DNA from: Halorhabdus utahensis DSM 12940
GTDB taxonomy: Archaea; Halobacteriota; Halobacteria; Halobacteriales; Haloarculaceae
Assembly: GCF_000023945.1 (NCBI RefSeq)
Contig: NC_013158.1
Coordinates: 1,922,001-1,986,000 of the forward strand
Length of the DNA stretch: 64,000 nt
Direction of reading: 5' to 3'
The translations under genes and the position numbers were made by a program. Positions 5,001-21,689 of this stretch are shown in pieces (position 1 is the stretch's first letter; every line of letters starts with the position of its first letter). Below the pieces are notes generated by a model. It was not told the origin of the DNA, did not search any database, and saw only the letters and a list, made by a program, of their open reading frames with translations.

Positions 5001-5858
5001 TGGGCGCGGTTCAGCGAGCGCACGGCCGAGATGCAGCGGCTCCACCCCGGGGCAGACGTCACCGGCGATATGCAGAGCATCGCCGGCGGTAACGAGGTAC
5101 CCGACGCTGAGCGTCTGCGGACGCTGATCGATGAGGCAGACGCCCACAGGCAGCGCGTCGTCCGAGAACAGTACGAGCGCATCACCGGTGAGACGCCAGC
5201 CGACGAGGAGTCGGAGAGTGTCGTTTCCAGCCTCGCGACGTGGTTGTTCGCTCACGACGGAAGCAGCAAGGAAATCGCCGACCGCGTCTCCGTCGAATTC
5301 GGGGGTGTGACGATCGACGACCTGTACGATCTCTTCGAGACGGCGTGGGAAGGTGACTCATTCTCGGAAGAGGAACTCGTCGATCCAGCGGTTGTCCAGC
5401 AAGCCGAGCGATACTCGAGGGCGCGGGAGCTCCTCGAATCACCCGAAGGCGAGGTCAGTCTTTGGTCGAAGCTCCAAGACGCGTCGAGGCGACTTGAAGA
5501 GGAGTATCCGAACCACCCAGTCACAAGCGACGTGGAGGAGACGCTATCTCGGTCACAGCCGCCGAGCGTGGATGAAGTGGAACGGCTTCTTGATAAGGCA
5601 GAGAGCCCATTCGAAGTCGACGAACGGCTGGCAGAGCTCGCCGACGAACTGCAGACCGAGTACCCAAATCACGAAGTTACCGCAACAGTCGTTAACGCCG
5701 TTGAAGGACCCAGCCAGCCGAGCGACGAGCGCGTGGGCGAATTGATTGAAGAGGCTGAACAGCTGCTTGAAGGTGTGGATGAGCAGTTGCGGCGGATTAG
5801 AGAAACGATGAACGAACTTGACGATGGGTCCGTTGTGGTGGTCGAGTCTCTCGATTGA
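2016..5858 (+). CDS. brxC: BrxC/PglY P-loop ATPase of BREX
   Basis: 1280 residues, typical of BrxC/PglY. The Walker A motif is at about residues 70-77 (FGSGKTHL) and a Walker B-like strand at about 262-270 (LLIGLDEVALF). BrxC ATPases are required for BREX defence and are thought to act with PglX and PglZ; the mechanism is not settled. The last third contains an internal repeat: residues about 908-1050 resemble about 1062-1195, with a third partial unit at about 1197-1260. Each unit has an AER(F/Y)xRAR helix and a later DE(V/L)-rich helix. The last ~110 residues are duplicated in the pseudogene at 7545-7877. The start is set by the ATGA overlap with brxB. Confidence 0.85.
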   Translation: MSDHRIHDIFQQSPTRELEEVQKVNARAQAENDVREFYETDSARSVLTTLGNLVDKYPQEEPRFLYISATFGSGKTHLLKLAGFAADTESKFADLGEELASRWPGFQSFRQSIADSHVDRLKPVFLNLLNRDASQEPPLPYLIYEVIGRELGYPNDPNWLLEWAWQLDMNHGDCWELLQEIEYDGRTFDEVYDERASLRSWLYGAVPTLDDTPYRSSSEVKQSIDTAIEEIDPDEFDPDELVDRVEAAQEALSTPETETELLIGLDEVALFIGDGRHRYREFQETMEALTNPATGPNPPIVGTGQYPFDRIHGEFEDSDVTDEPWWGKQEPLEGADTEIIVRKRWLQKDGDGEQAVDAAIHELPDLTLDTYADITGADPDAIESYPFREYDLGLLRTVIQQLMPRGRVTEEEYVQGRALLILVRSLFTRFEWGEKSVGALVTWDELYDLLVEETTYVPLWVQEMVENKLVPSAGGDEDAFSVRVAKALYLLNQVRSEVPSTPANLARLMVESADASLEEVQDDVESALADLVEDRKVLTETSDRGDEEYLLVSEEQEDILTRAKTRAQQISSHRLSAKLETYLQEGSDHLLSAGSRHEVDLDGERRVPLRFDYSVLDPIERAPTPEFDAIRVRLVADRPDTVADQVDAWQSTNEGQDGGEHVLVAVEISESTVERLRDVMGMQEVLSEETETYPDLESDHRDDQRALESTVRDQLNEADIYVRAGDTRGRYGDVFEQVVTNQVQSVFGRTRHALTNGITEVDDAKQMARFFRGVDDWPLSSEDAVTLGVDTNRGELADGWCQEFLDDYENTQSLRGEDLLAQTVQRGGKYRGTPRESIAALLITLATANEIALRRDDEYITEPEEIGRAVRNKTNLTGLQIRFESLDGIDPDQIRETVRTLMSESPEGSDPDAWLSELAEWVDENSVLVKRVLRGVSREFGEGASLDELENALEPALGGEALETEDFATDEVEREAERFARARGLFRPDEDDTTLWARFSERTAEMQRLHPGADVTGDMQSIAGGNEVPDAERLRTLIDEADAHRQRVVREQYERITGETPADEESESVVSSLATWLFAHDGSSKEIADRVSVEFGGVTIDDLYDLFETAWEGDSFSEEELVDPAVVQQAERYSRARELLESPEGEVSLWSKLQDASRRLEEEYPNHPVTSDVEETLSRSQPPSVDEVERLLDKAESPFEVDERLAELADELQTEYPNHEVTATVVNAVEGPSQPSDERVGELIEEAEQLLEGVDEQLRRIRETMNELDDGSVVVVESLD

Positions 5859-5918: not shown

Positions 5919-6398
5919 TCAAACTTTCTCTGCCGATCGCAGCTCGTCGGCGACTGTATCCGGTAGGTGTACGTCCCCAATATACGCTGAACAGCCATCG
6001 TTGAACGAATCCTCGTCAATACCACACAGTTCGAACGTTTGGATCAGGAATTTCGTTCCCCACATACGTTCGATATCTCTCTTTTCTGCTTCAGCAATCA
6101 CTCGTCGGTCATTCGAAACGAGAATGGGATCAGTGACCGTTTCAGCGAGTCGGATGAGTGTCCAGTCTGGCTCACCGAGTTCTACTGACTTCGAGTCCAA
6201 ACGGTCTGTATCCACGCTCTTCGACCTTAGCCAGTCTGGCTTGGTATATTCGTGATGTGGAGTGAACTCACCCTCCCAAATCCGTTCTGTGGTGAGTATA
6301 TCGTACTCGGCACTCCAGAAGGAGAGATCGTGGAACCAGCTGCCCGACGCAAACGCCGAGAGAACAGAATTATCGAGTATGAGATGCCCGCTATTCAT
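5919..6398 (-). CDS. PIN-domain toxin-like protein
   Basis: 159 residues. PIN-type features are an N-terminal strand with LILDNSVLSAF (Asp at about 9), an acidic residue in TTERIWEGEF (about 56-65), and a C-terminal strand PILVSNDRRVIAEAEK with Asp at about 99. These would form the acidic metal site of a PIN ribonuclease. It lies antisense to the BREX genes. Its ATG overlaps the end of the upstream UPF0175-tailed gene by 8 bases, the usual antitoxin-then-toxin order. PIN proteins partnered with UPF0175 antitoxins are known in archaea, so a type II toxin-antitoxin pair is inferred. The target RNA cannot be predicted. GC is lower than in the flanking brxC. Confidence 0.7.
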   Translation of the reverse strand: MNSGHLILDNSVLSAFASGSWFHDLSFWSAEYDILTTERIWEGEFTPHHEYTKPDWLRSKSVDTDRLDSKSVELGEPDWTLIRLAETVTDPILVSNDRRVIAEAEKRDIERMWGTKFLIQTFELCGIDEDSFNDGCSAYIGDVHLPDTVADELRSAEKV

Positions 6399-7275
6399 TC
6401 ATTAGGTCCGGACCAGAATGGAGTTCCTCAACGGTGTCAGGTCCATAATTCGGACGGACATCGTTTTGTTCCAGGAGATTGACGAACTGTTCCTGAGTCA
6501 TCCTGGCCAACTCAGCGCCACGGCCAACCGAAATGTCTGATTCCTTGTATACTCTCAGTGCGCCACGTCTAATGGCGAGCCTCGCTCTTTCCTCGCTACT
6601 CAGTTCCTCAATTGCAGGGTACTCAACGTTGGGGTGCAGCACCTCAGTTAGACCACTTTCGCCGTAGAGTACATCGGTGGCTAACGCGTCACGAGACAGC
6701 CGTTTCCCGTTCTGATCTCGTTTGATTTCCCTGTATAGACGGGCATAGGAGGCGATCGCCACTGATCCAAGCTGATACTTCTCCTGCTCGTTTAGTTCGA
6801 GTGGTGGAAGGGAATCCTCGCCAGTCGTATCGTCGGACTGTATTCCTGCCTGGATCACCTCCATTACGTCCTGGAGTACGTCCACGACAGCCAAGACGAG
6901 GAGAAGTGCGTTTCTATGACGAGGGTCCACTTCCAGGGCTTTCCTGGCAATCTTTGCAGCCCACTGGTTCAATAGCTGTTCAAGGAAGGTGAACAGGATC
7001 GCTGAAGCGACGGGGAACTGGACGTCGAACGCATCCAGGCTTCCGAACTCCTCGACAAAATGCTCCTTTAGAACGTCTGCACCGTCTTCGAATCGCTGTT
7101 CTGGTGGTAGTTCCAGCAATTCCTCGATAATTCCCTCAATGAACTGCTCTGGATCATCGAACGTAGCTGAGGTAGCTTGCTGTAAGCGCTGGACGAGCAT
7201 CACCAGTGGCTGGGTTGGATCAACAGATCCGGGGCCCGACCCGCCACTGGAACCAGGAGCATCGTCGCCCAGCAT
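6391..7275 (-). CDS. UPF0175-tailed antitoxin-like protein with a large unknown N-terminal domain
   Basis: 294 residues. The last ~60 match the UPF0175 antitoxin pattern: a helix RRGALRVYKESDISVGRGAE, then LARMTQEQFVNLLEQNDV and an acidic tail. Standard UPF0175 proteins are only about 80-100 residues. Here about 225 extra residues precede it: a Gly/Ser/Pro-rich start, an acidic helical section, a hydrophobic stretch around 110-160 (FPVASAILFTFLEQLL, then LLLVLAVVDVLQDVMEV), and a basic section. I do not recognise that region. It is first in a two-gene antisense unit with the PIN gene, which it overlaps by 8 bases. The call as antitoxin rests on the tail and the partner. Confidence 0.6.
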   Translation of the reverse strand: MLGDDAPGSSGGSGPGSVDPTQPLVMLVQRLQQATSATFDDPEQFIEGIIEELLELPPEQRFEDGADVLKEHFVEEFGSLDAFDVQFPVASAILFTFLEQLLNQWAAKIARKALEVDPRHRNALLLVLAVVDVLQDVMEVIQAGIQSDDTTGEDSLPPLELNEQEKYQLGSVAIASYARLYREIKRDQNGKRLSRDALATDVLYGESGLTEVLHPNVEYPAIEELSSEERARLAIRRGALRVYKESDISVGRGAELARMTQEQFVNLLEQNDVRPNYGPDTVEELHSGPDLMNE

Positions 7276-7346
7276 CGATAGTGTACTCTAATCTTGGGGG
7301 ACACGAATATCTATCGCACCCTTCGTCGTCTGTAGAGCTCCCACTG

Positions 7347-7525
7347 ATGGGCAATCTTCACGAGACAGCCGTGGTTCTGGAAGAGAGGTCGGTTGACTCT
7401 CGTTTAGACGGGAATTGGACATAAGGAGTACCAAGCTTGACAAAGAAGAGCGTGTGTATCGCGAAGATGTCGTCACCGAGCGCGAACGCGTCGAGGCGAA
7501 TGTTCGCTACCAGTTCGAAGAAAGA
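7347..7525 (+). pseudogene. Ghost of the pglX 5' end
   Basis: Aligning from the ATG at 7347 with the intact pglX start at 9651 gives base-level similarity throughout. The first frame reads MGNLHETAVVLEERSVDSRL against pglX MDNIQDTSAGLNQTSADSHM, then hits a TAA at 7422. After a frame change, 7436 onward reads LDKEERVYREDVVTERERVE and NVRYQFEE, matching pglX LDKEEREHLEDVVTEMRERV and NVRYQLEE. An in-frame stop plus a frameshift make it non-functional. Similarity ends near 7525, just before a brxC-like segment begins. It is read as the remains of a second pglX copy. Confidence 0.85.
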
Positions 7526-7544
7526 TATTGCACTCATCGATAGG

Positions 7545-7877
7545 AGTGATGTCAAGGAAGCGCTGTCTCGGTCACAGCCGTCGACCGTGGACGAGGTAGA
7601 GCAACTCCTTGAGGAGGCCGAGGATCCATTCAAAGTCGACGAACGGTTGGCGGAAATCGCCGACGAACTGCAGGCCGAGCACTCCGGTCACGAACTGACT
7701 ACGGAGGTCATCGACGTCGTCGAAGGAAGCAGTCCACCGAGTGACGAGCGCGTAGGGAAGCTGATTGAGGAGGCCGAACAGTTGCTCGCAGGCGTAGACG
7801 AGCAATTGAAGCAGATCCGAGAAACGGTGGACGATCTCGAAGATGGCTCCGTTGTGTTAGTCGAGTCTCTCGAGTGA
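7545..7877 (+). pseudogene. Ghost of the brxC 3' end
   Basis: The segment encodes about 110 residues that match the last ~110 residues of BrxC (5524-5858) at roughly 70% identity, counted by eye. Landmarks are LSRSQPSTVDEVEQLL, FKVDERLAEIADELQ, PSDERVGKLIEEAEQLL and an ending DGSVVLVESLE against DGSVVVVESLD. It is open and in frame with an ATG at 7437, so a 146-residue product is possible. However, the 7437-7544 part is the pglX ghost read in the wrong frame, so that product would be artefactual. Together with the pglX ghost it forms a pglX-start/brxC-end joint, the reverse of the normal order. Confidence 0.85.
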
Positions 7878-7946
7878 CGGAAATGCTACGGTTCACCTCG
7901 CAGAATATTAGTAGCCGGCTGTGACTGTCGTCCACTACGAAATAGC

Positions 7947-9542
7947 CTATACGCCGTCGAAAGCTTCCTCAACGATTGACTTTAGGTCGGAGAATTCATC
8001 ATCTACCCCTATTTCGTACATTACTTGTGCAATGTCACGGGCATTTTGGACTTTCCCGTCATCGTAGTTGTAGTCCTCCAGAATATCCTCTGCCTCGTCG
8101 TAATGTCCTATATTGATGGATTCTGAAACCTCTAACACATCTTCAATCGCATCCGCGTGGAAGTAGTTCTCTATCTCCCTCCTTTCCAGAACCCATCGAT
8201 CCAAGTCAATTCGGTCTGCTTCATCTACCAACAAGGCTGATTGGTCGCCCAATTCACCACCCTCAGACGTTCGATCACTATCAATGAGAATACCGGAATT
8301 TCGGTTAATATGTTTCATGTTTTCTAGTTGATGTCGAAGATTGCCTCCGCCTGCTGGCTGAACTGTAACATTGATACCATCCCAATCATCAAATTCGTGT
8401 TGACAGATAACCTCAATAACCGCAGCATCAGAGGCTCCCTCTGTGTACAGAACGTAGTCACTCTGGAGGATGTCGCTGTTTTTAGCGCCGATTGCCTCTA
8501 TGGCTTCGAATCCATCATCTTTCACGTGCTTGAACTCTGCTTCCCCATCATCGTTCGACGCAACGATGAGACTACCATTCTCGTGAGTATCAATCAGAGA
8601 TTGTGAGTGAGTCGTGATGATGACCTGATTTCCTTGTGACGCGATTTCTCGGAGTGCTTGATCCATTTCTCTGACCGCACTCGGATGGAGCGAATTTTCA
8701 GGTTCTTCGTAAAGCACGTAGTAGCCGTCATCAAGTTCTGAATCAGCATACGACTTCATCATCGATAGAATAAACTGATTCCCCACACCGGAGCCTCGCT
8801 CAGAGAGTGGCATCCACTCATCTACGTTGTCGTCTCGAACCTCGATTTTCGGTGAGACAGCTTTAGAAAGGTCAATATCTCCGAGTTCTATTTGAACATC
8901 ATTTATGTGTGAGTGTTGATCGGAGAGTACCTCATTCAGTGAGGCTTTGATTTCCTCTAGTTCATCCTCAAGTTCGGAACGAATCTTTTGTTTCTGTTCG
9001 TTGAGATTGTCACTGCTAAACACGGGGGACATCACTCTGGTCAGCCATGACCCTTGAGTTAGGGATGTTTCGCTTTCGTGGTCGCGTTCGGCAAGGACAG
9101 TCACCGTCTCAGATAACTGTTCTTTGATATACTCACGGGAATCTGATTTGCTGAGTTCCTCTTCGTCGATCTGTATAGCGCCCGATTCAATCTCCTCGCC
9201 ATTGATATACAACCCGTCCGGCGTCCGTCCACTGGAAGACGTATAGCGGGCCGTTATCGAAAGATTATCACCGTCGAGATAGTCGTCTGTCAACATTTCC
9301 TTCAGAGTGTCGGAGATCTCTTCGAATTCGCAACAAAGTATAATCGTATTGCTCTCATCGAGCATATGGAAGTCTGATTTGTCCGGCGTGTCGAACTTCA
9401 GAAGAAGGTCTATGGCCTCCAACACCGATGACTTCCCGACATCGTTCTTCCCGATTATGATGTTGTACTCTCCAAATTCGAGGGTCTGCTCTTTGATTGC
9501 TTTGTAGTTCCGAACGGAAAAAGACGAAATTCTCATCGACAT
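7947..9542 (-). CDS. OLD-family ATPase-TOPRIM endonuclease
   Basis: 531 residues. The N-terminal SMC/ABC-like ATPase starts with ISSFSVRNYKAIKEQTLEF and Walker A GKNDVGKSS (about 31-39). Walker B is EEPENSLHPSAVREMD, followed by IITTHSQSLID (about 260-310). The C-terminal TOPRIM domain has YTEGASDAAVIEVI (about 367-380) and GILIDSDRTSEGG (about 416-428), giving the Glu and Asp-x-Asp metal ligands. OLD nucleases cut DNA and several act in phage defence. It is antisense between the ghosts and pglX. No UvrD-type partner directly adjoins it, so it is more like a stand-alone OLD than a Gabija pair. Lower GC and codon use point to separate acquisition. Confidence 0.85.
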   Translation of the reverse strand: MSMRISSFSVRNYKAIKEQTLEFGEYNIIIGKNDVGKSSVLEAIDLLLKFDTPDKSDFHMLDESNTIILCCEFEEISDTLKEMLTDDYLDGDNLSITARYTSSSGRTPDGLYINGEEIESGAIQIDEEELSKSDSREYIKEQLSETVTVLAERDHESETSLTQGSWLTRVMSPVFSSDNLNEQKQKIRSELEDELEEIKASLNEVLSDQHSHINDVQIELGDIDLSKAVSPKIEVRDDNVDEWMPLSERGSGVGNQFILSMMKSYADSELDDGYYVLYEEPENSLHPSAVREMDQALREIASQGNQVIITTHSQSLIDTHENGSLIVASNDDGEAEFKHVKDDGFEAIEAIGAKNSDILQSDYVLYTEGASDAAVIEVICQHEFDDWDGINVTVQPAGGGNLRHQLENMKHINRNSGILIDSDRTSEGGELGDQSALLVDEADRIDLDRWVLERREIENYFHADAIEDVLEVSESINIGHYDEAEDILEDYNYDDGKVQNARDIAQVMYEIGVDDEFSDLKSIVEEAFDGV

Positions 9543-9650
9543 ACTTGCGCCGAGTGGTGTCAGGGATGTAAATCTATGTGAGAGGTCTAGTTAGTTGTCA
9601 GCCTGCTTCTCCCTCCCGCATCACAGCGAAAGTCGTGTGGCATCTATTCG

Positions 9651-12600
9651 ATGGACAACATTCAAGACACTTCCGCGGGTCTGAACCAAACATCGGCTGA
9701 CTCTCATATGGAAGGGGATTCTACGACTCCACGAAAGGCCCAACTCGACAAGGAGGAACGCGAACATCTCGAAGATGTCGTCACCGAGATGCGCGAACGC
9801 GTTGAGGCGAACGTTCGCTACCAGCTCGAAGAGTACGATCTTGAAGAGCGTCCCAACAAAGATACGTCCCTGAGCGACGAGGAAGAAGGTCTCGTTGAGG
9901 CCATCAAACTCGAAGCCGTCGACGGAAACGACTGGGATGACGGCTACGAGCAGTATATCACGGGCGTCGGTTATACCATCGTCAATCGACTCGCTGCCCT
10001 TCGCTGTATGGAGGTTCGTGACTTCATCGACGACGAGGTGACGCGATTCCGTGAGGATGGACTCACGCCGGCGGCCGACCGATTAGTCACCGAGGAGTTC
10101 ATGCTCGAAGAGGAGGCCGTCCTCGAAGCCTATCGAAATGCATGCGACGATCTCGCCGAGGAAATCGAAATTCTCTTCGACCGCTCTACTGCCTATAGTC
10201 TGATTGACCCCGATGATGACACTTTTGAAGATCTCTGTGTGATGCTTGACGAGGTTCCCAACGAAGTATGGCGGGCCGATGATGTTCTTGGATGGATTTA
10301 TGAATACTACAACGTCAAACTCCTTGATGATCTTCGACGAAAGGGAGAACGTCAAGGTCTAGAGCCGGAAGATGTTCCACCCGCTAACCAGTTTTACACC
10401 CCACATTGGGTTGTTAGAATGCTCACTGACAATTCACTGGGCAAACTATATTTAGAAGATACAGGGGAACTGCAGAATGTCGTTGATTCTCAGGAATCAA
10501 TCACTCCTCAAGAGCGCAAAAACCGTCCCCTGTCACCTGAGAAATCAGCAGAGTTAGCTGATTTTTGCACCTATATTGTACCGTCTGAAGAAGGAGGTAA
10601 ACCCCCTGAATTTGGCGAGCCTGCAGACATTCGCGTAATAGATCCAGCTTGCGGTAGTGGCCACTTTTTGTTATATGCCTTTGATATTCTGGAACGTATT
10701 TGGAGGAAGGAAACGAAAGTCGATCATAAAGATATACCTCGTAAGATTTTGAAACATAATCTCTATGGCGTTGACCTTGATATGCGAGCCTGCCAACTCG
10801 CTGCCTTCAATCTCTATCTGAAAGGGAGGACACGTACTGAAGCAGAAGGTGGCAGTGACTTTGAAATGCCCAAAGTGAGTATTGTTTGTGCAGATGCGAA
10901 GATCGCCGACATAGAGGGGATCGAAGATGTATTTGATGAGGTTATTTCCAATAGTTCGAGTATCAAATCAGCTCTAAGTGAAGACGATGTCGAAGAAGCC
11001 TTAAATAATATTGTAAGATCTTTTGAAGACATTCACGGCCTTGGTAGCCTCCTCGATGTTCGAGGAACCCTTGGAGAAATGTTTAGTGACGATAGTGAGG
11101 GGCTTCAATTAACTTTCGAGGATGATTTTACAGCTGATTATACTTTAAGCGGTTTTCTACATACACTACAGGAAGCTATTGCAGAACATGATAACAACGA
11201 ATCGTTCCTTGCACAGGATTTGAGAAGCTTCATTCGGTTAATCGATATACTCGCTCAGGAATATGATGTTGCTCTGATGAATCCCCCCTATGGGTCGCGA
11301 AAACGGATGCCCGATGAAGTAACTGAATATGTTGAAGAACATTACAGGTACAACCCCGAATATTATATAAATTTCTTCGAAGTCTGTGATAACATAACAA
11401 AAGAAAACGGCCGTATCGGTATGCTTATCCCCCGGTCGTTTATGTTCAAAAAATGGTTTAAACAATTCCGAGAAGACTTTGTTGGTGGAGAGGGGGTTTT
11501 TGATTTCCTTGCTGAATTTGGGTTAGGAATTCTTGATAATGCTACTGTCCGTACAGCTGCTACTGTTGTTAGGTCAGGAGTTGAAGGGGATGATACTGGA
11601 TCATTTATTCGGCTGTATGATGTTGAAAGCGAAAGCAAAGAAGAAGCTTTCTTGGATACAATCTCAAAGTCAGATGATATCAAAAGAAAAAGGTTATATA
11701 ATGTTCAGCTATCTGAATTTTCGATCGTGCCCGAAACTCCCCTGAGTTATTCTATACCTTCGGAAATCCGGTATCTACACGACACTGATTTGAAAATAGA
11801 TGCTGAGGTAGCAGAGATCGATGGAAACAGTATCTCTACGATTGCAACAGGCCTCCAGACGGGTAACAACGACCGGTTCCTACGAAAACACTGGGAATCA
11901 ATCTCTGACGATTTCCGCCCATATGCGAAGGGAGGTGCAGACGCTTGGATTATTCCACCAGCCATCCATACGGTGAACTTCAATGGAGGAGGAAGGGAGA
12001 TCCGCGCTGCTGGACGTGCCCGATTCCAGAATAGTCAGTTCTATGGCAAAGAAGGGCTAAGCTGGACATACATTAAGGATACAGGGAGGAGATTTGGCTA
12101 TCTGCCAGAAGGTTATGTATTCGATGTTGCCGGATCAATGGTATTCCCCGAGGAGGATTACTCTCCTTGGAGGTTGATGTCTGTTCTAAATAGTGACCTA
12201 TATCACTGTCTCTTCCTTTCATTGACTCCAGAAAGACAGTGGAACCAAGGTGATGTTGGCCGAATTCCTTGGATCAGCGACCTAGATGATGAAGAGGAGC
12301 TAATAGATATTTCCAAGGAGCAGTATCAGCTAATGATTTCCCAGCGAGTATATGATCCTACTAGTCCTTTCTATATCGGCCCGGCCCTATTACCAGATCA
12401 ATCAAATGTCGAATTCTTCTATAACCATCCTGTTTTAGATAAAATCGAAGAAATTTCAAAGACCGATTTTAGTGGGTCGAATCCGGCAGTATCGGTTACT
12501 GAAGCAGTTCAAAAAGCGCAACAACGGAAAAGTCGAAAGAGTAGTCAGCTTGAACAACTTGCTACCCAAGTAGACGAAATAATCTATGATGAGCTGGAGA

Positions 12601-13943
12601 TACAGGATAAGGTGAGGCAGAAAATCATCTCTGAAATAGCTCTTCGCACAGGAGAGGATCCAGAAAATCGTGAAATCTCTTCAGCTCTGGTGGAATCCGT
12701 TGGAGATACTCAACATCAAATAAAGCTTCTACTTCATCATTTTGCAGTTGAATCTATCCAACAGAAAAGCGATGGGATTGTGCCAATTTCTTCTGAAAGA
12801 GGTCATCCGAATATCTTTGATGCAGTTAAAGAAAGAATCGAAAACGCATATGAAGGACACGCTGAAGATCGATTAGCGGAAATTGACGACTTACTTGGGA
12901 GCAGATCAGCAGACGAGGAGGCATATCCGAACATTCGCCACTGGGTCAGTAATGACCTATTTGAGTTCCATACCGACACGATGGAAAATACACCGATCAT
13001 CTGGAAAATGACCACTTCTGGTCTGACGTCAGATAGAGAAGAAGATGGATTCGCCTGCTTTATTGATTATAAGCAACTTGATGCAGCCCTATTTGATCGT
13101 CTAAGCAATCAGTATCTTGAACCACGAAAAGCAGAACTCAGGGAACAACGTTCTGCTGCAAATCAACGTCAAAATAATGAATCACTTTCCAGTACTGAGC
13201 GAGCAGAAGCTACTGAAGAGTTCGAGTTTTGTACGAATGCTCTTGAGCAGATAGCAGTATTTGAAGAAGTGATTCAAGAACTTGCGATGGCCAATACTCG
13301 AGACTGGGATCAAAGCAAACAAAATATAGCCTCTAATTTAGAGTCTAAAGTAAAGGATTTCCGTGAAAAGACCGAAAAGCGTCTCCGTCTTCTTGAAAAG
13401 TTGGCCCAGAAAGATGACGTAAGCCTAGCTGATATATTTACGAAAACATTCTATCCTACTGCACAGCAGGAGAGAGAAGAGTGGACAGGATCACTAAAGG
13501 AACTCGAAGAAGCCTGTAGGGCCTACAGCAGGGACGCGTCAGAGCCTGTTGAAGCACACTATTATGATTATCTCTCATATTTTGATGAGGTAATTGGGTC
13601 AACCCACTTTGCAAGCAACGGTATTTTATTTATGACATATTACTTCGAAGATGGCACTAAATATCTGGAAGATGGGACACCGAAAGAGGATTTATCCGAA
13701 GAAGGCCAGATCCTTGCGGAACTAGCAGTTGGCCTTGAAGACTATATCAATCTTGCAGAAGAAATTAATGAGGATTGCGAACGGCTTACGAAGTCAATCC
13801 CTTCGAATTGGGAAGATCGAGCATTATCTGAGATCTTGACACAGGGTTATCAACCCAAATATAAGCATGGTGTAGAAATAAATATAATACCTCTGTCAGA
13901 CAAAAATATTGTACCGGATATTGTTGAGGACAAGGTGATTTGA
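9651..13943 (+). CDS. pglX: PglX, BREX adenine-specific DNA methyltransferase
   Basis: 1430 residues. The N-terminal ~320 are helical. Methyltransferase motif I is DPACGSGHFLLYAFDILERI (about 332-351) and motif IV is NPPY (about 543-546), giving an N6-adenine enzyme. A long C-terminal region should carry target recognition. In BREX, PglX methylates a non-palindromic site to mark self DNA and is needed for defence. The first ~550 bases are GC-rich with haloarchaeal codon use. From roughly 10.2 kb the gene becomes clearly AT-richer (many ATT, AAT, AAA), so it looks mosaic. The ATG at 9651 is supported by alignment with the ghost start at 7347. Confidence 0.93.
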   Translation: MDNIQDTSAGLNQTSADSHMEGDSTTPRKAQLDKEEREHLEDVVTEMRERVEANVRYQLEEYDLEERPNKDTSLSDEEEGLVEAIKLEAVDGNDWDDGYEQYITGVGYTIVNRLAALRCMEVRDFIDDEVTRFREDGLTPAADRLVTEEFMLEEEAVLEAYRNACDDLAEEIEILFDRSTAYSLIDPDDDTFEDLCVMLDEVPNEVWRADDVLGWIYEYYNVKLLDDLRRKGERQGLEPEDVPPANQFYTPHWVVRMLTDNSLGKLYLEDTGELQNVVDSQESITPQERKNRPLSPEKSAELADFCTYIVPSEEGGKPPEFGEPADIRVIDPACGSGHFLLYAFDILERIWRKETKVDHKDIPRKILKHNLYGVDLDMRACQLAAFNLYLKGRTRTEAEGGSDFEMPKVSIVCADAKIADIEGIEDVFDEVISNSSSIKSALSEDDVEEALNNIVRSFEDIHGLGSLLDVRGTLGEMFSDDSEGLQLTFEDDFTADYTLSGFLHTLQEAIAEHDNNESFLAQDLRSFIRLIDILAQEYDVALMNPPYGSRKRMPDEVTEYVEEHYRYNPEYYINFFEVCDNITKENGRIGMLIPRSFMFKKWFKQFREDFVGGEGVFDFLAEFGLGILDNATVRTAATVVRSGVEGDDTGSFIRLYDVESESKEEAFLDTISKSDDIKRKRLYNVQLSEFSIVPETPLSYSIPSEIRYLHDTDLKIDAEVAEIDGNSISTIATGLQTGNNDRFLRKHWESISDDFRPYAKGGADAWIIPPAIHTVNFNGGGREIRAAGRARFQNSQFYGKEGLSWTYIKDTGRRFGYLPEGYVFDVAGSMVFPEEDYSPWRLMSVLNSDLYHCLFLSLTPERQWNQGDVGRIPWISDLDDEEELIDISKEQYQLMISQRVYDPTSPFYIGPALLPDQSNVEFFYNHPVLDKIEEISKTDFSGSNPAVSVTEAVQKAQQRKSRKSSQLEQLATQVDEIIYDELEIQDKVRQKIISEIALRTGEDPENREISSALVESVGDTQHQIKLLLHHFAVESIQQKSDGIVPISSERGHPNIFDAVKERIENAYEGHAEDRLAEIDDLLGSRSADEEAYPNIRHWVSNDLFEFHTDTMENTPIIWKMTTSGLTSDREEDGFACFIDYKQLDAALFDRLSNQYLEPRKAELREQRSAANQRQNNESLSSTERAEATEEFEFCTNALEQIAVFEEVIQELAMANTRDWDQSKQNIASNLESKVKDFREKTEKRLRLLEKLAQKDDVSLADIFTKTFYPTAQQEREEWTGSLKELEEACRAYSRDASEPVEAHYYDYLSYFDEVIGSTHFASNGILFMTYYFEDGTKYLEDGTPKEDLSEEGQILAELAVGLEDYINLAEEINEDCERLTKSIPSNWEDRALSEILTQGYQPKYKHGVEINIIPLSDKNIVPDIVEDKVI

Positions 13944-14045
13944 GATGACTATAATCGGGTATCAAAATATCTATCACAATCCTGAACTTATGGACTTACA
14001 AAAGATGCTATCCGACTTTTTCCCAACAGACGATCAAGGTATCCC

Positions 14046-14921
14046 ATGACCCAAGGAGAGATCTGTCAGCTTTTGTCAGAACTGAGTGGGAGCGCAACTC
14101 AGGAAAAAATAGCTGAGCTAGCCCAAGAAAAATATCCTGATCGCACACTCGCTGCTTATGTTGGGGAATTTCTACACATAATGAAAGAAAAGGGGCTAGT
14201 GGAGATCGTCAACGGGTATTGGAAGATTACTGATATGGATTCAGTACCGAAAATTGAACACCGAATCGACGAACTTGATGCCGTTATTAGTGAAGAGACT
14301 CTAAGAAATGACTGCGGGATTACTATTTCAAACCTTGTTGGTTCACTTCGATTAGAGAGGGAGCTAGATTTAGGGGCCCTCAATTCAGATCTGGAAAATA
14401 CAGACTATCATCCGGAGACATATCCAAGTATGATCTATCGTCCCGATATAGATAGCAGTATGAGCGTACTAACTCCTTCGAGTGGGCGATTAGCTATTGT
14501 GGGGGCTAAAAACAAAGAAGAGTTATTAAAAGGGGTCGATGATTTTCTCGGAAAATTAGCTATGCTTGGTATTGATGTCGATAAAAATACAAATGATTTA
14601 CTCGTTCAGAATATTGTCGGTGACTTTGATATAGGACGAGAAATAGATCTTTCAGCCCTGTCTATTGCACTTGGCCTTGAGAATATTGAGTATGAGCCTG
14701 AACAGTTTCCGGGAATCATATATCGAGGGGGTGGAAATTCCACGGTTCTTCTCTTTAACTCCGGGAAATGCGTTATCACTGGCTCAAAATCTTATTTGGA
14801 GCTTGTTCAGGCCAGAGATGATATAATTAGGATCCTCTCAAAACATGGCCTTGAAACGGATCTTGAAGAGTACAACGTAATCTCTTCGGAGGAGAATGGT
14901 TCCGATAGTAGTAAAGAATAA
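14046..14921 (+). CDS. Winged-helix domain fused to a divergent TATA-binding protein (TBP)
   Basis: 291 residues. Residues 1 to about 72 look like a winged helix (ICQLLSELSGSATQEKIAEL, then LHIMKEKGLVEIVNGYWKIT). Residues about 94-280 hold two TBP repeats. Repeat 1 has ISNLVGSLRLERELDLGAL, TYPSMIYR and SSGRLAIVGAK. Repeat 2 has VQNIVGDFDIGREIDLSAL, LENIEYEPEQFPGIIYR and LLFNSGKCVITGSK, close to standard haloarchaeal TBP. The paired Phe residues TBP inserts into DNA are kept in repeat 2 (QFPG, LLFNSG) but are Tyr and Pro in repeat 1 (TYPS, TPSSG). The gene ends 5 bases before pglZ and is AT-richer than it. The inferred role is promoter-specific control of the defence operon or of invading DNA. 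Confidence 0.88.
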   Translation: MTQGEICQLLSELSGSATQEKIAELAQEKYPDRTLAAYVGEFLHIMKEKGLVEIVNGYWKITDMDSVPKIEHRIDELDAVISEETLRNDCGITISNLVGSLRLERELDLGALNSDLENTDYHPETYPSMIYRPDIDSSMSVLTPSSGRLAIVGAKNKEELLKGVDDFLGKLAMLGIDVDKNTNDLLVQNIVGDFDIGREIDLSALSIALGLENIEYEPEQFPGIIYRGGGNSTVLLFNSGKCVITGSKSYLELVQARDDIIRILSKHGLETDLEEYNVISSEENGSDSSKE

Positions 14922-14926
14922 CATCG

Positions 14927-17119
14927 ATGCAAGCTACCCAAACTCTCCCTGACGCTGCAAAAGACACAATCCGCCGCAAATTCGACCGCGCAGAGTCGAA
15001 CGACCCGATCGTTCTCTGGTGGGACGACGGTAACTACCTCGAAGACATCCTCCAGCAGGCCTGTGCCGAACTCGGCGTCCCGCTGAAGACTGCCGAAAAA
15101 ACACCGCTGGAACTCCGTGCTGACCCAGTCGACGGTGAGCAGGTCTGGTACGTTCCACACGTCAAAGAGCCAGCCGACAGAGAAGGTGACTACGACTGGT
15201 TTCGGGACGTCCAGCACACGGGGAGCGAGGTGGAGATGAGCATCGAGGATCTCACCGTCCACGTCTTCGGGAGCGAACAGCTCCAAGCGTGGGAACTGAA
15301 GAACGCCACCCAATCCGACAACCCTCAGCAGCGCCGGGAGATCGCGCGAATCCTCCACGACCAACTCACCGGCGGCCAGCTCCCGACGCTCGAACAACTC
15401 CGTACCCAGATCGTCACCGGGGGCTATACCGATCCGGTGGCGTTCGTGCTGGAGAACGGCTGGGCAGATATCGACGACGATCCCCAGACCGTCGACCAGA
15501 TGAAGGACTTGCTGACCAGCGAGGGCGTCGACGCGGTCGCCGACGAGAGCGAGCCTACGACCATCGAAACCCAGACGCGTCGGTGGGCGGTCGCGGAGTG
15601 GTTGATTCACGCTGGCGCCGACGCCGACCGCTTCCCCAGCAAGTTCCGGGCCGAAACCGCCGGCGCTCACGACCTGCCGGAACTCAAGTCACTGCTGAAC
15701 AACACGACCTCGCCCGATCTGATCGCCGACCGCTACCTCGGGGAGGCGGTGTGGCCCGACGTAGTCGATACCATCGACGATCCGTGGGAACTGTCGAGTT
15801 GTATCGTAGACGCTGCACTCGAACGCCGTCTCTGGGATGAGTGGCACGCGTCCTTCGACGTCGGTGACTACGAGGAGTGTCTCGATCGTGCCGAGGAACG
15901 GTACGAAGCCCTCCTCGGGAGCGAGGACATCCACGGGAACTACCGAGGCGCATACGGCCCGGATAGCCCGTGGACGCAAACGTGGGAGCAGGCCGCCGAG
16001 GTGGCCCGTCTCGCACATCAGCTCGACACGTGGGACGAGAACGTGAACGACGACGTCGTCTCCCTGTACGCGGACGAGGATGACGGTACGTGGCAGATCG
16101 ACAACGCCATCCTTAATCTCGTCGTCTCCGGCGAACCGGAGACTGACCTTCCCGGCAACCACCCGGCGACCAAAACGCTGGACGACCTCCGCACCCAGCT
16201 CCAGTCGGAGTACGTCGACTACCTCGAAGACCTCGGCGACCTCGTCACTGAGACCATCGAGGCTGGCGCTCCATTCGTCGACGAGGATCACGCCTACCAG
16301 TTCTTCACCAAGGAATCCGACGGCCTCGAGAGCGGGCAGACGGTCGCGCTGTTCGTCATCGACGCCCTTCGACTCGACCTTGCCCGTCGCCTCGCGGACG
16401 AACTCCGCGAGTACGTGGCGACCATCCCGGCCGACGCGCCCGAGTTCGCCGTCGAAGAGAGTGTCTGGCTCGGGACACTACCCTCGGAGACCGAGTTCGG
16501 GAAGGCCGCCCTCACGCCCGGTGAAGTCCAGATGTTCGACATCTCGCTCGTCGATGGCGACCTATTGCCGCTCCGCAACAACCGTGAAGTCAACACAAAC
16601 CGACGCAACTCGCTGCTGGATGGTGACGGCTGGACGGTCACGCGCGAGGAAGACGAGGGCTGGCAGTCGACGCGTGTGGCCTACTTCAAGAATGACCTCG
16701 ACAATATGGGTGAGAAGGAACTCAGCGATCTCGAAGAGATGCTTGCCCAGCGTGTCGACTCTCTCGCGGAATTCATTGGCACGAAGGTCGAACAGGGCGA
16801 GTGGGATCAGGCCTACGTCCTGACCGACCACGGGTTCGTCCTCCTGCCTCACGACGTAACCCCGGGGAAAATCTCACGACCGACGGAGTCGACAGACTCC
16901 GGTCGTCGGTGGGTTGCCGGCGAGAACGTCGACGAGGACTCGCCCGGTGTGCTGCTCGACGCCAGCACTCGGTTGGGATATCTCGACGCCAACGTCAGCG
17001 CCTTCGCGAGCCCGCTCAGGCGGTTCAGCAAGCAGGGTGTCGGCGACGCCCGCTTCTACCACGGCGGTCTCCTTCCACAGGAGTTCGTACTCGACTTCAT
17101 CAGCATCACGCAAGGGTGA
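14927..17119 (+). CDS. pglZ: PglZ, alkaline-phosphatase-fold BREX protein
   Basis: 730 residues. The start region (IVLWWDDGNYLEDILQQA) resembles PglZ N-termini. The C-terminal PglZ domain has ALFVIDALRLDLARRLADEL (about 474-493), with the Asp expected of the phosphatase fold, and YVLTDHGFVLLP (about 629-640) with the Asp-His pair. PglZ is the signature protein of BREX. It begins 5 bases after the winged-helix-TBP gene and ends 9 bases before the HEPN gene, so all three are probably co-transcribed. It is GC-rich, unlike both neighbours, which suggests the neighbours were added later or exchange independently. Confidence 0.93.
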   Translation: MQATQTLPDAAKDTIRRKFDRAESNDPIVLWWDDGNYLEDILQQACAELGVPLKTAEKTPLELRADPVDGEQVWYVPHVKEPADREGDYDWFRDVQHTGSEVEMSIEDLTVHVFGSEQLQAWELKNATQSDNPQQRREIARILHDQLTGGQLPTLEQLRTQIVTGGYTDPVAFVLENGWADIDDDPQTVDQMKDLLTSEGVDAVADESEPTTIETQTRRWAVAEWLIHAGADADRFPSKFRAETAGAHDLPELKSLLNNTTSPDLIADRYLGEAVWPDVVDTIDDPWELSSCIVDAALERRLWDEWHASFDVGDYEECLDRAEERYEALLGSEDIHGNYRGAYGPDSPWTQTWEQAAEVARLAHQLDTWDENVNDDVVSLYADEDDGTWQIDNAILNLVVSGEPETDLPGNHPATKTLDDLRTQLQSEYVDYLEDLGDLVTETIEAGAPFVDEDHAYQFFTKESDGLESGQTVALFVIDALRLDLARRLADELREYVATIPADAPEFAVEESVWLGTLPSETEFGKAALTPGEVQMFDISLVDGDLLPLRNNREVNTNRRNSLLDGDGWTVTREEDEGWQSTRVAYFKNDLDNMGEKELSDLEEMLAQRVDSLAEFIGTKVEQGEWDQAYVLTDHGFVLLPHDVTPGKISRPTESTDSGRRWVAGENVDEDSPGVLLDASTRLGYLDANVSAFASPLRRFSKQGVGDARFYHGGLLPQEFVLDFISITQG

Positions 17120-17128
17120 ATTCAGCTC

Positions 17129-18664
17129 ATGACTCTGAAATCCGATGTTCACGACGATGTGAAGTCTGCTTGCAGAGACTACATATCCTCGATAAAACAA
17201 GGTGAAGACGAGATACCTACCGACACAGTCTTCAAACTGACCGGGTCTGGAGTGAGATTCAGAGAAACTACAGAAATTAACCGCCCTTCACTTGCGCTGA
17301 GGCGAAATCCGGGAGAACACTATTCTGGTGAATTTGAGTCTATTGCTGAACATATTGCTGATGAGCTCCCGTTTGAGATGGTTCCAGAAGTCGATATAGA
17401 CGGGGAAGGGAATCAATTCGTCGTCAATGAGGAGTTATCGGGGAAAATAGAGGATAGTCTAAGGGGCTTCGCCGGACTTGTCTTGGATTACGCTAGCAGC
17501 TTTGATTTCGATGATGCAGCCTTTGAGGCTGCTTACGATCGCCAGTTTGAACCAGATTATGCAGATCGAGAGAAGTATGAAATTCTTGTCCCGCTACGAG
17601 GCGGTAGAGCAGGATCGGATATAACTCTCGGGACAGGGCTTCAATTCGATAGCCAATTCGATGGCCCATATAATTTTTCTAACATAGAAATAACGGATGT
17701 CTCTGATGCTGAGTGGAACGGAATAGCGACATTCGATGCTCCTTTTGATGCGCCAACCAACACTCAACTCCCGGAACCCACTCAAGACTACTCTTACTCG
17801 AATGTACTGCGAGTAACTATCAAAAGAAGGCGCAAGAACGTCCGAGAATATATTCTGAATAATCGAGGAGGGGATCCTAGTAAACTCGATGCTGAATCCG
17901 TCTCCGTACTAACGGTGGACAACCTTTCATCCAAGATTCACGATCATCTGATGAGGGAATTAGTGGATACTCTCGAAAGAACCCTTCACCACTACAAACC
18001 ACGCTGTGACCCCGGGTTTGGAACGGGATATATACTGTCTCCGAGTTGGCTGGCATACCGTGGGATTGCTGTAGATATTGTTGATGAAGTAAATGTCGAG
18101 CGGGAGGCGGGGCACGGAGAAATAGTACTCGATGACGGTCAAAAAGGGTTCAGCGCGTTTTGGGACAGATATTCCTCTTACTTTACTGGTCAGGATTCTC
18201 ACTACGACAAGCCCCTTGTGAGATTTGAAGAGATGTTCCATAAGCGGAGAGACGAAGATGCAATCCTTGATTGTTTGATCGCTTTAGAAGGTACGCTTCT
18301 AAGAGGGACACAAGGATCTTCCTACACATTCCGGATCGGGCTACGTGGGAGTTTCCTACTTGACGGGTCGAATCGATTATCGTGGAACCGTGAGAAAATT
18401 AGGGATTTTCTTTCGGGGCTCTATGCCGTTCGAGGAGAGATTGTACATCAAGATAGATCGCTCGCGGATGCAATTGACGAGGTCAATAACAGTGAACTCG
18501 ACAATTATAGCGCCTCCGCTCTTGCTGAAGAGGCTCGTGTGGTTTTTGCCAAAATTCTACTTCGATATATCGACCATGACATCGACCACGGGTTATCGAT
18601 TAATGAGGTGAATCAAGATTTGGATCAGGCCGCACTTGACGCATCTTACTCACCGGGGCCATGA
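17129..18664 (+). CDS. Apea-like HEPN protein in the BREX operon
   Basis: 511 residues. The C-terminal ~150 look like an Apea-like HEPN domain: helix LDCLIALEGTLLRG, then FLSGLYAVRGEIVHQDRSLA with the HEPN RNase motif R-x4-H (RGEIVH, about residue 435), then EEARVVFAKILLRYI. The N-terminal ~350 residues are unassigned, with mixed sheet and helix and a YSNVLRVTIKRRRKN segment around 230. HEPN proteins often cleave RNA in abortive-type immunity. It starts 9 bases after pglZ and precedes the helicase by about 110 bases. GC is low compared with pglZ and brxHII. It is not among the canonical BREX parts I know, so an accessory effector role is inferred. Confidence 0.65.
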   Translation: MTLKSDVHDDVKSACRDYISSIKQGEDEIPTDTVFKLTGSGVRFRETTEINRPSLALRRNPGEHYSGEFESIAEHIADELPFEMVPEVDIDGEGNQFVVNEELSGKIEDSLRGFAGLVLDYASSFDFDDAAFEAAYDRQFEPDYADREKYEILVPLRGGRAGSDITLGTGLQFDSQFDGPYNFSNIEITDVSDAEWNGIATFDAPFDAPTNTQLPEPTQDYSYSNVLRVTIKRRRKNVREYILNNRGGDPSKLDAESVSVLTVDNLSSKIHDHLMRELVDTLERTLHHYKPRCDPGFGTGYILSPSWLAYRGIAVDIVDEVNVEREAGHGEIVLDDGQKGFSAFWDRYSSYFTGQDSHYDKPLVRFEEMFHKRRDEDAILDCLIALEGTLLRGTQGSSYTFRIGLRGSFLLDGSNRLSWNREKIRDFLSGLYAVRGEIVHQDRSLADAIDEVNNSELDNYSASALAEEARVVFAKILLRYIDHDIDHGLSINEVNQDLDQAALDASYSPGP

Positions 18665-18773: not shown

Positions 18774-21689
18774 ATGACGGACACGACATTCTCTTCCGGC
18801 CAACAAGTGATTCTCAACGGCACGTCCGCGGAGGTCATCCAGACGCGGACAGTTGGTGACATCGAGTATCTTCGAGCATACATCGACGGCGAGGGCGTCA
18901 AGACGGTCTGTCTGGACGACGTCGATATCCAGCCACACCAAACCGGGCTGGAGACCCTCTCCGGGCAGCAACTCGATGATCTTCATCCGGATCACGAGGC
19001 CGTATCTGCCCAGTGGTTCGACCTCCACACGCAGGCGACGAAGCTGAAGCTCGCCCACGAGCAGGGACAGTTGCTGAGCATTTCCAACTCGCTCGTCCGG
19101 CTGGAACCCTACCAGCTGGCGTGCGTCAATTGGGTGATGCAGAAACTCCGACAGCGTGCGCTCATCGGGGACGACGTCGGTCTCGGGAAGACCATCGAGG
19201 CGGGGCTCATCCTCAAAGAATTGAGTGCCCGAAACCGGGCCGACCGCGTCCTCTTCGTCGTCCCTGCCCACCTCCAGAAGAAGTGGATCCGGGATATGGA
19301 TCGCTTCTTCGACGTGGATCTCACCGTCGCTGACCGGGCGTGGGTCGAAGGCGAGCGTCGGCGTCTCGGAGAGGAGGCCAATATCTGGAATCAAGACCAG
19401 CAGCAACTCGTCACCAGTATGGCCTTCCTGCGGCAAGAGGAGTTCCGGTCGGCGCTCCGAGACGCGTTCTGGGATGTCGTCGTGGTCGACGAGGCCCACA
19501 AGGCCGCGAAGCGGGGCGACTCCCCGAGCAAGACGGCGAACATGGTCGAGACTGTTGCGGGCAACTCCGACTCACTCCTCCTCCTCAGTGCGACGCCTCA
19601 CGACGGGAAGGGAGAGGCATTCCGGTCGCTCGTCGAGTACATCGACCCCTTCCTCGTCGCCGAGAACCGCGAGCTCTCGCAGGAGACAGTCGACCGTGTG
19701 ATGATCCGACGCGGCAAGACGGACATCTACGACGACGACGGCGAGCGCATCTTCCCCGACCGGGAGGTCAACTCTGTCTCCGTCTCGATGACCCACGACG
19801 AACGGCAGTTCTACCGCGCCGTCACGGACTACGTCAAGAACGTCTACAATCGCTCTGAGAAGCTGAACGAGCCCGCGGTCGGGTTCGCGATGGCGCTCAT
19901 GCAGAAGCGGCTGGTCAGCAGCGTCGGCGCGATTCACGCCACGCTCCGCCGGCGGCTGAACGATTTGCTCGATGAACAGACGGCGACGGACGAACTCTCC
20001 GAGGAGGCCGAGGCCTACCTCGACGGCGAGGATCTGGACGAGGACGACAAGCAGCGAGCGGAAGACGAGATTGCCGGGCTGACCGTCGCCAGCAACGATG
20101 AACAACTCCAAGAGGAGATCGACACGCTCCGCGATCTCGTCTCACTCGCCGAAGACCTGCCCGTCGACTCGAAGGCCCAGAAGGTACGGCGGTTCATCAG
20201 CCAACTCCTCGAAGAGCAACCAGACGAGAAGCTCCTGCTGTTCACCGAGTACCGGGATACGCTCGACTACCTCCTCGACTTCGTACAGGACGAGCCGTGG
20301 GCCGAAGAGATTCTGGTCATCCACGGTGACGTCGACAAAGAGGAGCGGGCCCGCATCGAAGACGAGTTCAATCACGGCCAGTCGCGACTGCTGTTCGCGA
20401 CCGACGCGGCGAGCGAGGGGATCGACCTCCAGCATAGCTGCCACATTATGGCGAACTACGAGTTGCCGTGGAATCCCAACCGGCTCGAACAGCGCATCGG
20501 CCGGATCCACCGCTACGGGCAGGACAGGGAGGTCAAGGTCTGGAACTTCCTCTTTGATGACACTCGTGAGAGTGAAATCTTCGAGATGCTCCAGACCAAA
20601 GTCGAAGAGATTCGCTCGAAGCTCGGCAACACGGCGGACGTGCTCGGAATCCTCGACGACATCGACGTGGACTCGCTCATTATGGAGTCCATCCAGAACG
20701 ACGAGCCGCCGAGCGCAACCAAGGAGGAACTCGAGGACCTGATCGAGGAGCGCCAGCGCACGCTCGAAGAGTGGTACGAACGGAGTCTCGTCGACACCAG
20801 CACGTTCGACGCGGAGAGCCGCCGGCAGATACAGGAGGTCGTCGACGAGTCCGAAGACGTCTACGGGAGTGCCGGTGACATTCGGGAGTTCTTCGAGCAG
20901 GCAGTCGAGGCCTTCGGCGGCGAGTTCGAGAAGCGCGGCACCAATCTCTATCAGGCCGAATTACCCGAGGACATCCGACCCCCGGATGAGGATGCGACCT
21001 TCGGCCCGTTCACGTTCGACCGCGAATTTGCGATGGAGCACGAGGAAATCACGTTCGTAGCGCCCGACACGGACGTCCTCCAGCGACTCATGGCACGCGT
21101 GCTGGAGTTCGATCGGGGAGATGTCGGCCTCAAACTCCTCCCGTTCGTCGACACGCCGGGAGTTACCTACAATTATCGCGTAGCGTTCGAGGATGGCACC
21201 GGAGAGGCAATCCGGGAGGAGACAATCCCCGTCTTCGTCGACGCGGAGCAACGGGATGCCCAACAAGGGCTCGGTGAGCGCGTCGTCGAGGGCGAGACGG
21301 TGTCTGCGAAACCAGGGGTGGATGACATCCGGACAGTAGTGGACGCCGAAGACGAACTTCGTGAAGCCGCCGACCGCTATGTGAGTGCTCGGGTGAACGA
21401 GATCAAGTCCGACCTCAGTTCCAAACGCCACGAAGAGACTGCCCGGGAACTCGAAAACCTCAACGAGTACGCACAGTCCGAACGCGAGCGCATCGAGTCC
21501 TTTATCGAGGAGTACGAACGCAAGTCCGAGGCCGGCTCGGATATGGACATCGCGATCCGGGGCCAGCGTGAGCGTCTCGAAAAACTCGAAGAGCGAATCG
21601 AGACGCGTCGCCAAGAGCTGAAACGTCGGGAGCAGGTCATCTCGCTGGCGCCCGAGGTCGAGAACTACTGTTTGACACTACCACTCTGA
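18774..21689 (+). CDS. brxHII: BrxHII-like SNF2-family helicase
   Basis: 971 residues. Helicase motifs run in order: LIGDDVGLGKTIEAGLILKE (motif I, about 132-151), VVVDEAHKAAKRGDS (motif II), LLLLSATPHDGKGE (motif III), then the second lobe with LLFTEYRDTLDYLLDF, ATDAASEGIDLQ and NRLEQRIGRIHRYGQ. The C-terminal ~350 residues are acidic and helical, ending in a coiled coil (about 880-960). BREX types 3 and 5 carry such a helicase (BrxHII) in place of BrxL. It closes the defence operon on the right. The ATG at 18774 follows a purine-rich GAGGAA at about 8 bases. DISARM DrmD is a related alternative, but the BREX partners decide. Confidence 0.8.
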   Translation: MTDTTFSSGQQVILNGTSAEVIQTRTVGDIEYLRAYIDGEGVKTVCLDDVDIQPHQTGLETLSGQQLDDLHPDHEAVSAQWFDLHTQATKLKLAHEQGQLLSISNSLVRLEPYQLACVNWVMQKLRQRALIGDDVGLGKTIEAGLILKELSARNRADRVLFVVPAHLQKKWIRDMDRFFDVDLTVADRAWVEGERRRLGEEANIWNQDQQQLVTSMAFLRQEEFRSALRDAFWDVVVVDEAHKAAKRGDSPSKTANMVETVAGNSDSLLLLSATPHDGKGEAFRSLVEYIDPFLVAENRELSQETVDRVMIRRGKTDIYDDDGERIFPDREVNSVSVSMTHDERQFYRAVTDYVKNVYNRSEKLNEPAVGFAMALMQKRLVSSVGAIHATLRRRLNDLLDEQTATDELSEEAEAYLDGEDLDEDDKQRAEDEIAGLTVASNDEQLQEEIDTLRDLVSLAEDLPVDSKAQKVRRFISQLLEEQPDEKLLLFTEYRDTLDYLLDFVQDEPWAEEILVIHGDVDKEERARIEDEFNHGQSRLLFATDAASEGIDLQHSCHIMANYELPWNPNRLEQRIGRIHRYGQDREVKVWNFLFDDTRESEIFEMLQTKVEEIRSKLGNTADVLGILDDIDVDSLIMESIQNDEPPSATKEELEDLIEERQRTLEEWYERSLVDTSTFDAESRRQIQEVVDESEDVYGSAGDIREFFEQAVEAFGGEFEKRGTNLYQAELPEDIRPPDEDATFGPFTFDREFAMEHEEITFVAPDTDVLQRLMARVLEFDRGDVGLKLLPFVDTPGVTYNYRVAFEDGTGEAIREETIPVFVDAEQRDAQQGLGERVVEGETVSAKPGVDDIRTVVDAEDELREAADRYVSARVNEIKSDLSSKRHEETARELENLNEYAQSERERIESFIEEYERKSEAGSDMDIAIRGQRERLEKLEERIETRRQELKRREQVISLAPEVENYCLTLPL

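Follow-up and report, generated by a model that had tools for sequence, protein, structure and literature searches.

The window, a stretch of 64,000 nucleotides of Halorhabdus utahensis DSM 12940 (NC_013158.1, positions 1,922,001 to 1,986,000, forward strand), carries a type-5 BREX system with a TBP gene inside it. According to the PADLOC models the system is complete (brxA, brxC, brxB, brxC2, pglX, TBP, pglZ, and brxHII), if brxA and the start of brxC, which lie just upstream of the window, are included. The features are as follows, with positions counted from the first base of the window:

11 to 1441, plus strand: C-terminal part of the first brxC copy (PADLOC); its 5′ part and brxA are upstream (L142)
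1438 to 2019, plus strand: brxB (Pfam, PADLOC)
2016 to 5858, plus strand: second brxC/pglY copy, brxC2 (PADLOC)
9543 to 9650: intergenic region between the diverging OLD-like gene (minus strand) and pglX (plus strand), a candidate promoter
9651 to 13943, plus strand: pglX, adenine methyltransferase, GC 0.44, GC3 0.40 (Pfam, PADLOC)
13944 to 14048, plus strand: 34-aa ORF directly after the pglX stop, read from the sequence
14046 to 14921, plus strand: HTH-TBP fusion gene, 291 aa (ORF calls, Pfam, AlphaFold model), with an HTH or probable winged helix at about aa 1–64, a linker at about 65–90, repeat 1 at about 92–176, and repeat 2 at about 186–268
14927 to 17119, plus strand: pglZ, GC 0.63 (PADLOC)
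17129 to 18664, plus strand: low-GC gene for a 511-aa protein in the slot between pglZ and brxHII
18774 to 21689, plus strand: brxHII helicase (PADLOC)

The HTH-TBP gene is a member of the operon, since its ATG overlaps the TGA of the 34-aa ORF (ATGA) and its stop lies 5 bases ahead of the pglZ ATG at 14927. The ORF coordinates, the spacing, and the PADLOC gene set thus agree with the placement of the gene between pglX and pglZ, within a BREX operon, in an earlier note on this DNA. The ATGA overlap suggests translational coupling, and the region at 9543–9650 is likely to serve as promoter for the pglX-TBP-pglZ part of the operon. There is a marked change in base composition along these genes, GC content falling from 0.63 in brxC2 to 0.44 in pglX and 0.41 in the TBP gene before returning to 0.63 in pglZ. 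The two genes form a low-GC block inside a BREX backbone of 0.61–0.63, and the block stops at the TBP/pglZ junction. Because both share this anomalous composition, the simplest reading would be that pglX and the TBP gene were acquired or swapped together, as an apparent cassette. Upstream of pglX, the OLD-like gene has a low GC content too (0.46).

This OLD-like gene, an OLD/AAA_15 ATPase with TOPRIM (7947–9542), is part of an opposite-strand insertion between brxC2 and pglX (5919–9542, minus strand) that also encodes a UPF0175 protein (6391–7275) and a 159-aa ORF. The interval looks like a cargo slot, because elsewhere it contains TBPs or OLD-like genes; the pglX-pglZ slot, too, is often occupied by different cargo in other genomes. 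The 511-aa protein matches nothing in Pfam or PADLOC and lacks a homologue in the other BREX loci examined, and the pglZ-brxHII slot in other genomes holds an unrelated-looking protein of 420–435 aa. A UvrD-like helicase with PD-(D/E)XK nuclease, together with another PD-(D/E)XK protein, follows directly on brxHII (21710–27167, minus strand); a comparable nuclease-helicase pair is found next to systems with a TBP in Halorientalis marina (L214) and Halorarius halobius (L287).

A Pfam scan identifies the fusion protein as a TBP with two repeats (PF00352, E = 6.1e-37; 125.8 bits against a curated cut-off of 22.9). The PDB sequences closest to it are archaeal TBPs, the AlphaFold model predicts a TBP saddle at pLDDT 80–90, and the best 38 PDB entries matching that model are all TBPs (Z = 16–21). 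Repeat 2 is near-standard (EYEPEQFPGIIYR), with Phe at both aromatic positions and a stirrup, EYEPEQF, identical to that of the single other TBP of the host genome, a normal 193-aa housekeeping copy. Repeat 1 is degenerate: Tyr and Pro/Thr replace its Phe residues. The N-terminus (aa 1–50) is confidently predicted as a three-helix HTH (pLDDT ∼90) and has weak matches to the winged-helix families FUR, LexA, TrmB, and ArsR; the beta wing has low pLDDT and is seen only in the full-length model. A Foldseek search with the HTH part alone returned no significant match, which is not evidence against a winged helix, and we regard this domain as likely to be one. The WYL domain that is the hallmark of BrxR is absent from the Pfam scan of the protein, which sets it apart from that regulator. 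Several claims of the earlier note can be checked here. It had named the lack of a predicted saddle as a reason to give up its reading, and the saddle is predicted; it had described a winged-helix N-terminus, of which the HTH is confident and the wing is not; and it had seen two TBP repeats, which the Pfam scan confirms. With the intercalating Phe pair of repeat 1 gone, the protein is not an ordinary general TBP.

In a tree of 89 TBPs (with long branches and a rough bootstrap), the ordinary "GTF-like" TBPs, the host TBP among them, form a group of 39 rows (support 99/98). The fusion protein falls in clade A (9 rows, support 97/88), apart from several B-type branches among the divergent TBPs; both halovirus TBPs described below belong to these branches, as do relatives close to a Halobacterium NRC-1 gene that is itself outside the tree. 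Repeat-1 residues F99 and F116 are retained in 36 of 37 ordinary TBPs. Among 44 divergent TBPs, F99 is never found (clade A 0/8, B-type 0/36) and F116 is found twice (clade A 0/8, B-type 2/36). The repeat-1 stirrup positions drift as well, unlike their repeat-2 counterparts: Both aromatic positions of repeat 2 are retained, and the EPEQF stirrup is present in 35–36 of 36 B-type sequences and in six of eight from clade A. The two exceptions in clade A are the only other HTH-TBP fusions that we found, in genomes G368 (EYNPDNF) and G071 (EYNPKKF).

In known TBP-TFIIB structures, the acids of the repeat-2 stirrup contact TFIIB/TFB and make no contact with DNA. Their conservation therefore favors a role involving TFB over mere DNA bending, although some clade A proteins may not bind TFB, given the altered acids of the G368 and G071 fusions. 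In the four divergent-TBP pairs that allowed a test, dN/dS is 0.06–0.11 with both repeats constrained, a sign of purifying selection that argues against decay; the fusion protein itself has no close relative.

Matching pglZ genes are carried by 62 of 391 genomes of the class (Halobacteria), and 11 of these 62 have TBP genes within or directly beside BREX. The linked TBPs occupy several slots in more than one BREX type. They lie divergent from pglX (G092, G298, and G371), convergent between pglZ and brxHII (G335 and G012), 3′ of pglZ (G316, G018, and a fragment in G216), or upstream of brxC (G379); G318 has two TBPs in or beside its BREX locus, and an additional BREX-like contig (G267:C24) has the order PglX-TBP-BrxC2. 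TBPs are likewise found on plasmids whose BREX-5 loci are annotated in RefSeq (Halococcus dombrowskii, Halorarius halobius, and Halanaeroarchaeum sulfurireducens), and in a different, brxL-containing BREX of Haloarcula halophila, where the TBP occupies the slot that the fusion gene has in H. utahensis and both methylase and TBP are low in GC. Flanks of ±1.5 kb around 29 other pglZ genes had suggested that only this genome has a TBP in BREX; wider flanks overturned that. The remaining 51 of the 62 BREX genomes have no TBP nearby, so the TBP is dispensable for BREX as such. The fusion to an HTH occurs among BREX TBPs only in the H. utahensis copy. The two other fusions (32% identity) are outside BREX: One adjoins a type I RM system (G368), and the other has an N4-methylase-like gene 3.2 kb away and standalone HTH genes adjacent (G071).

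The idea that the TBP link is limited to BREX did not survive a survey of the contexts of the other divergent TBPs. Using a local gene detector whose seeds were taken partly from divergent-TBP loci, and covering about 60 of 79 accessory TBP regions, we found a methylase or RM gene within 5.4 kb of all 24 non-BREX divergent TBPs, 20 of them from an unselected list in BREX-bearing genomes and four (G368, G071, G246, and G150) chosen by similarity to the fusion protein, their neighbors having been glimpsed before the test. The distance is within 3.5 kb in 22 loci and within 1 kb in 12. In contrast, none of 34 ordinary accessory TBP loci has such a gene within 10 kb (24/24 vs. 0/34, P = 8e-17, Fisher's test). 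Pfam and PADLOC scans, made as an independent check, covered the two genes closest to the TBP on either side. The neighbors of divergent TBPs (24 loci, 102 proteins) include N6_Mtase (15), Eco57I (13), and ResIII (13), together with HSDR_N (4), Methylase_S (4), N6_N4 (3), and GmrSD (3). The top families next to ordinary TBPs (34 loci, 123 proteins) are Orc1/Cdc6, HisG, MarR, and transposase, and the 25 families listed for them include neither a DNA methylase nor a type I RM family. The PADLOC scans of both neighbor sets agree with this contrast. A general defence-island background was considered as the cause and rejected, the ordinary TBPs, also accessory and partly plasmid-borne, acting as a control that shows no link.

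The earlier note had known of no BREX system with a TBP, and this no longer holds. The search it proposed, for HTH-TBP homologues in haloarchaeal BREX loci, finds recurrent TBPs but the HTH fusion here only. Homologues scattered without a link to defence, which would have spoken against it, were not what we observed; the TBPs are tied to defence genes, and the tie extends to DNA-modification systems generally rather than to BREX alone.

The divergent TBPs are often oriented divergently from the methylase, or overlap it or its helicase gene. Some type I RM operons (L250, L266, and L270/271) have a TBP at each end, the two coming from different TBP branches. Haloviruses show comparable arrangements. 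In Halorubrum virus HRTV-9, 16 bases separate a type IIG RM gene from the TBP gene that follows it, and in Haloarcula virus HJTV-2 a TBP is grouped with a separate wHTH gene, an N4-methylase, and an Eco29kI-type restriction endonuclease. An IMG/VR scan with P0001 found no viral relatives of the HTH-TBP fusion; the same database scanned with a B-type profile yielded seven viral contigs with B-type-like TBPs (L278–L284).

We think it probable, if far from certain, that the fusion protein is a dedicated defence-linked TBP variant, acting as a local transcription factor for the neighboring DNA-modification system. Its intact repeat 2 would bind one half-site and recruit TFB, and the HTH would give site specificity, substituting for the lost half-saddle. 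The protein may then tune transcription of pglX-TBP-pglZ(-brxHII), comparable to the action of BrxR and RM C proteins on their own systems, and one possible purpose is keeping a toxic methylase or restriction arm in balance on entry to a new host or under infection. It could be an activator, or a repressor through competition with the housekeeping TBP; the lost kink and the kept TFB surface would fit both. A wider proposal, to which we give an even chance, is that the half-saddle TBPs of haloarchaea and their viruses, one of them HTH-fused in BREX, are a class of TFB-dependent RM/BREX control factors, equivalent in archaea to C proteins and BrxR.

A role as local transcription factor is supported by the family-wide linkage to methylase and RM genes, by the recurrence of BREX-embedded copies (RefSeq-annotated loci included), and by gene arrangements in which the TBP diverges from, or overlaps, the methylase or its helicase. 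It is also supported by the asymmetric conservation of the two repeats (repeat-1 Phe lost, repeat-2 stirrup kept), the low dN/dS, the GC match of pglX and TBP and of methylase and TBP in H. halophila, and the wHTH, N4-methylase, and endonuclease genes adjoining the HJTV-2 TBP. Against it count the altered stirrups of the G368 and G071 fusions, the absence of a TBP from 51 of 62 BREX loci, and the mid-operon position without a promoter of its own. The promoter regions, read by eye, gave no operator motif; in three BREX loci that carry B-type TBPs, conserved stretches precede pglX (TAGCATACAG...), in a comparison by eye that was confined to TBP-bearing loci.

The mid-operon position fits a stoichiometric subunit too, as does the overlap of several RM-type TBPs with an upstream helicase gene. 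The half-saddle might be a DNA-binding or DNA-bending subunit, structural or sensory, of a defence complex built on PglX or a methylase-helicase, which we consider unlikely. In B-type TBPs the residues that contact TFB stay invariant, or nearly so, without touching DNA themselves, and the divergent TBPs pair with many unrelated systems and are often transcribed divergently from the methylase, as a regulator might be. The start-stop overlaps with methylase-helicase genes nevertheless suggest co-translation, and TBP domains do occur in the bacterial conflict systems TOTE/TALON (PMC12458937) and in nuclease fusions (PMC3710099). Less plausible again is antiviral interference, in which the variant on infection captures TFB or sits on viral promoters and so blocks viral transcription. 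TFB binding would stay while full DNA bending is lost, and haloviruses encode TBPs too, but the viral TBPs adjoin RM genes that the viruses themselves carry, an arrangement that suggests control of RM rather than a contest between viral and host TBPs, and the linkage is to modification systems. That the gene is a hitchhiking or decaying paralogue, a passive passenger of a defence island and non-functional as proposed for TbpC in 2014, is very improbable despite fragment copies (G216 and G298), a frame-broken B-type copy in G318, and the silent deletion of tbpC (PMC2121645), since selection should then be relaxed and methylase neighbors not preferred, and we observe dN/dS of 0.06–0.11, an invariant repeat 2, and the 24/24 vs. 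0/34 linkage.

If the divergent TBPs are indeed local transcription factors, their nearest analogues would be regulators of another fold. C (controller) proteins of type II RM systems are small HTH DNA-binding proteins that time methylase and nuclease expression. Like them, the divergent TBPs are encoded alongside a methylase or nuclease; unlike them, they are TBPs, and their regulatory role is inferred only. BrxR, a wHTH-WYL homodimer of bacterial BREX, is likewise a DNA-binding protein encoded within BREX and proposed to regulate its own operon (PMC9122589), whereas the fusion protein is a candidate regulator derived from a basal-factor paralogue. The TOTE and TALON systems, the latter rare, largely from Chloroflexota, and with TPR-CSD and TBP genes, also place a TBP domain within a defence locus, but the partners in TALON are neither BREX nor RM genes (PMC12458937). 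In a largely open-access literature we found no paper linking TBP to BREX or archaeal RM, and TBP is absent from the main text of a 2026 BREX survey. A basal transcription factor would be added to the components of BREX and restriction-modification systems, and there may be a reason for the presence of TBPs in some haloviruses.

Becker et al. (2014; PMC4230888) describe haloarchaeal TbpC-like TBPs that have lost the N-terminal Phe pair and kept the C-terminal one, and that are possibly non-functional or very specialised. They are dispensable under laboratory conditions, where tbpC transcripts were unseen (cited in PMC4230888), and the passage describing them reports no restriction or BREX link. 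Deletion of tbpC in Halobacterium had no phenotype (PMC2121645), which, with the unseen transcripts, counts against local transcriptional control. The fusion protein has the TbpC-like residue pattern, with the repeat-1 Phe pair lost and the repeat-2 pair kept, and differs in belonging to a separate group (clade A) and in its added HTH. Judged by their residues, the divergent TBPs include or resemble the TbpC-like TBPs. The near-exclusive link to DNA modification therefore points to a probable role for the latter, a puzzle since at least 2014, and suggests two classes of extra haloarchaeal TBPs, ordinary promoter-choice paralogues and defence-system factors. On plasmid pNRC200 of Halobacterium NRC-1, the gene order is methylase, helicase, TBP, with a 4-base overlap, and from the RefSeq naming of its relatives we infer that this TBP gene is tbpC. 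Within the region 103984–120526 of the plasmid (L285), an ISH element interrupts the methylase gene next to the TbpC-like TBP; this may be why the deletion has no phenotype.
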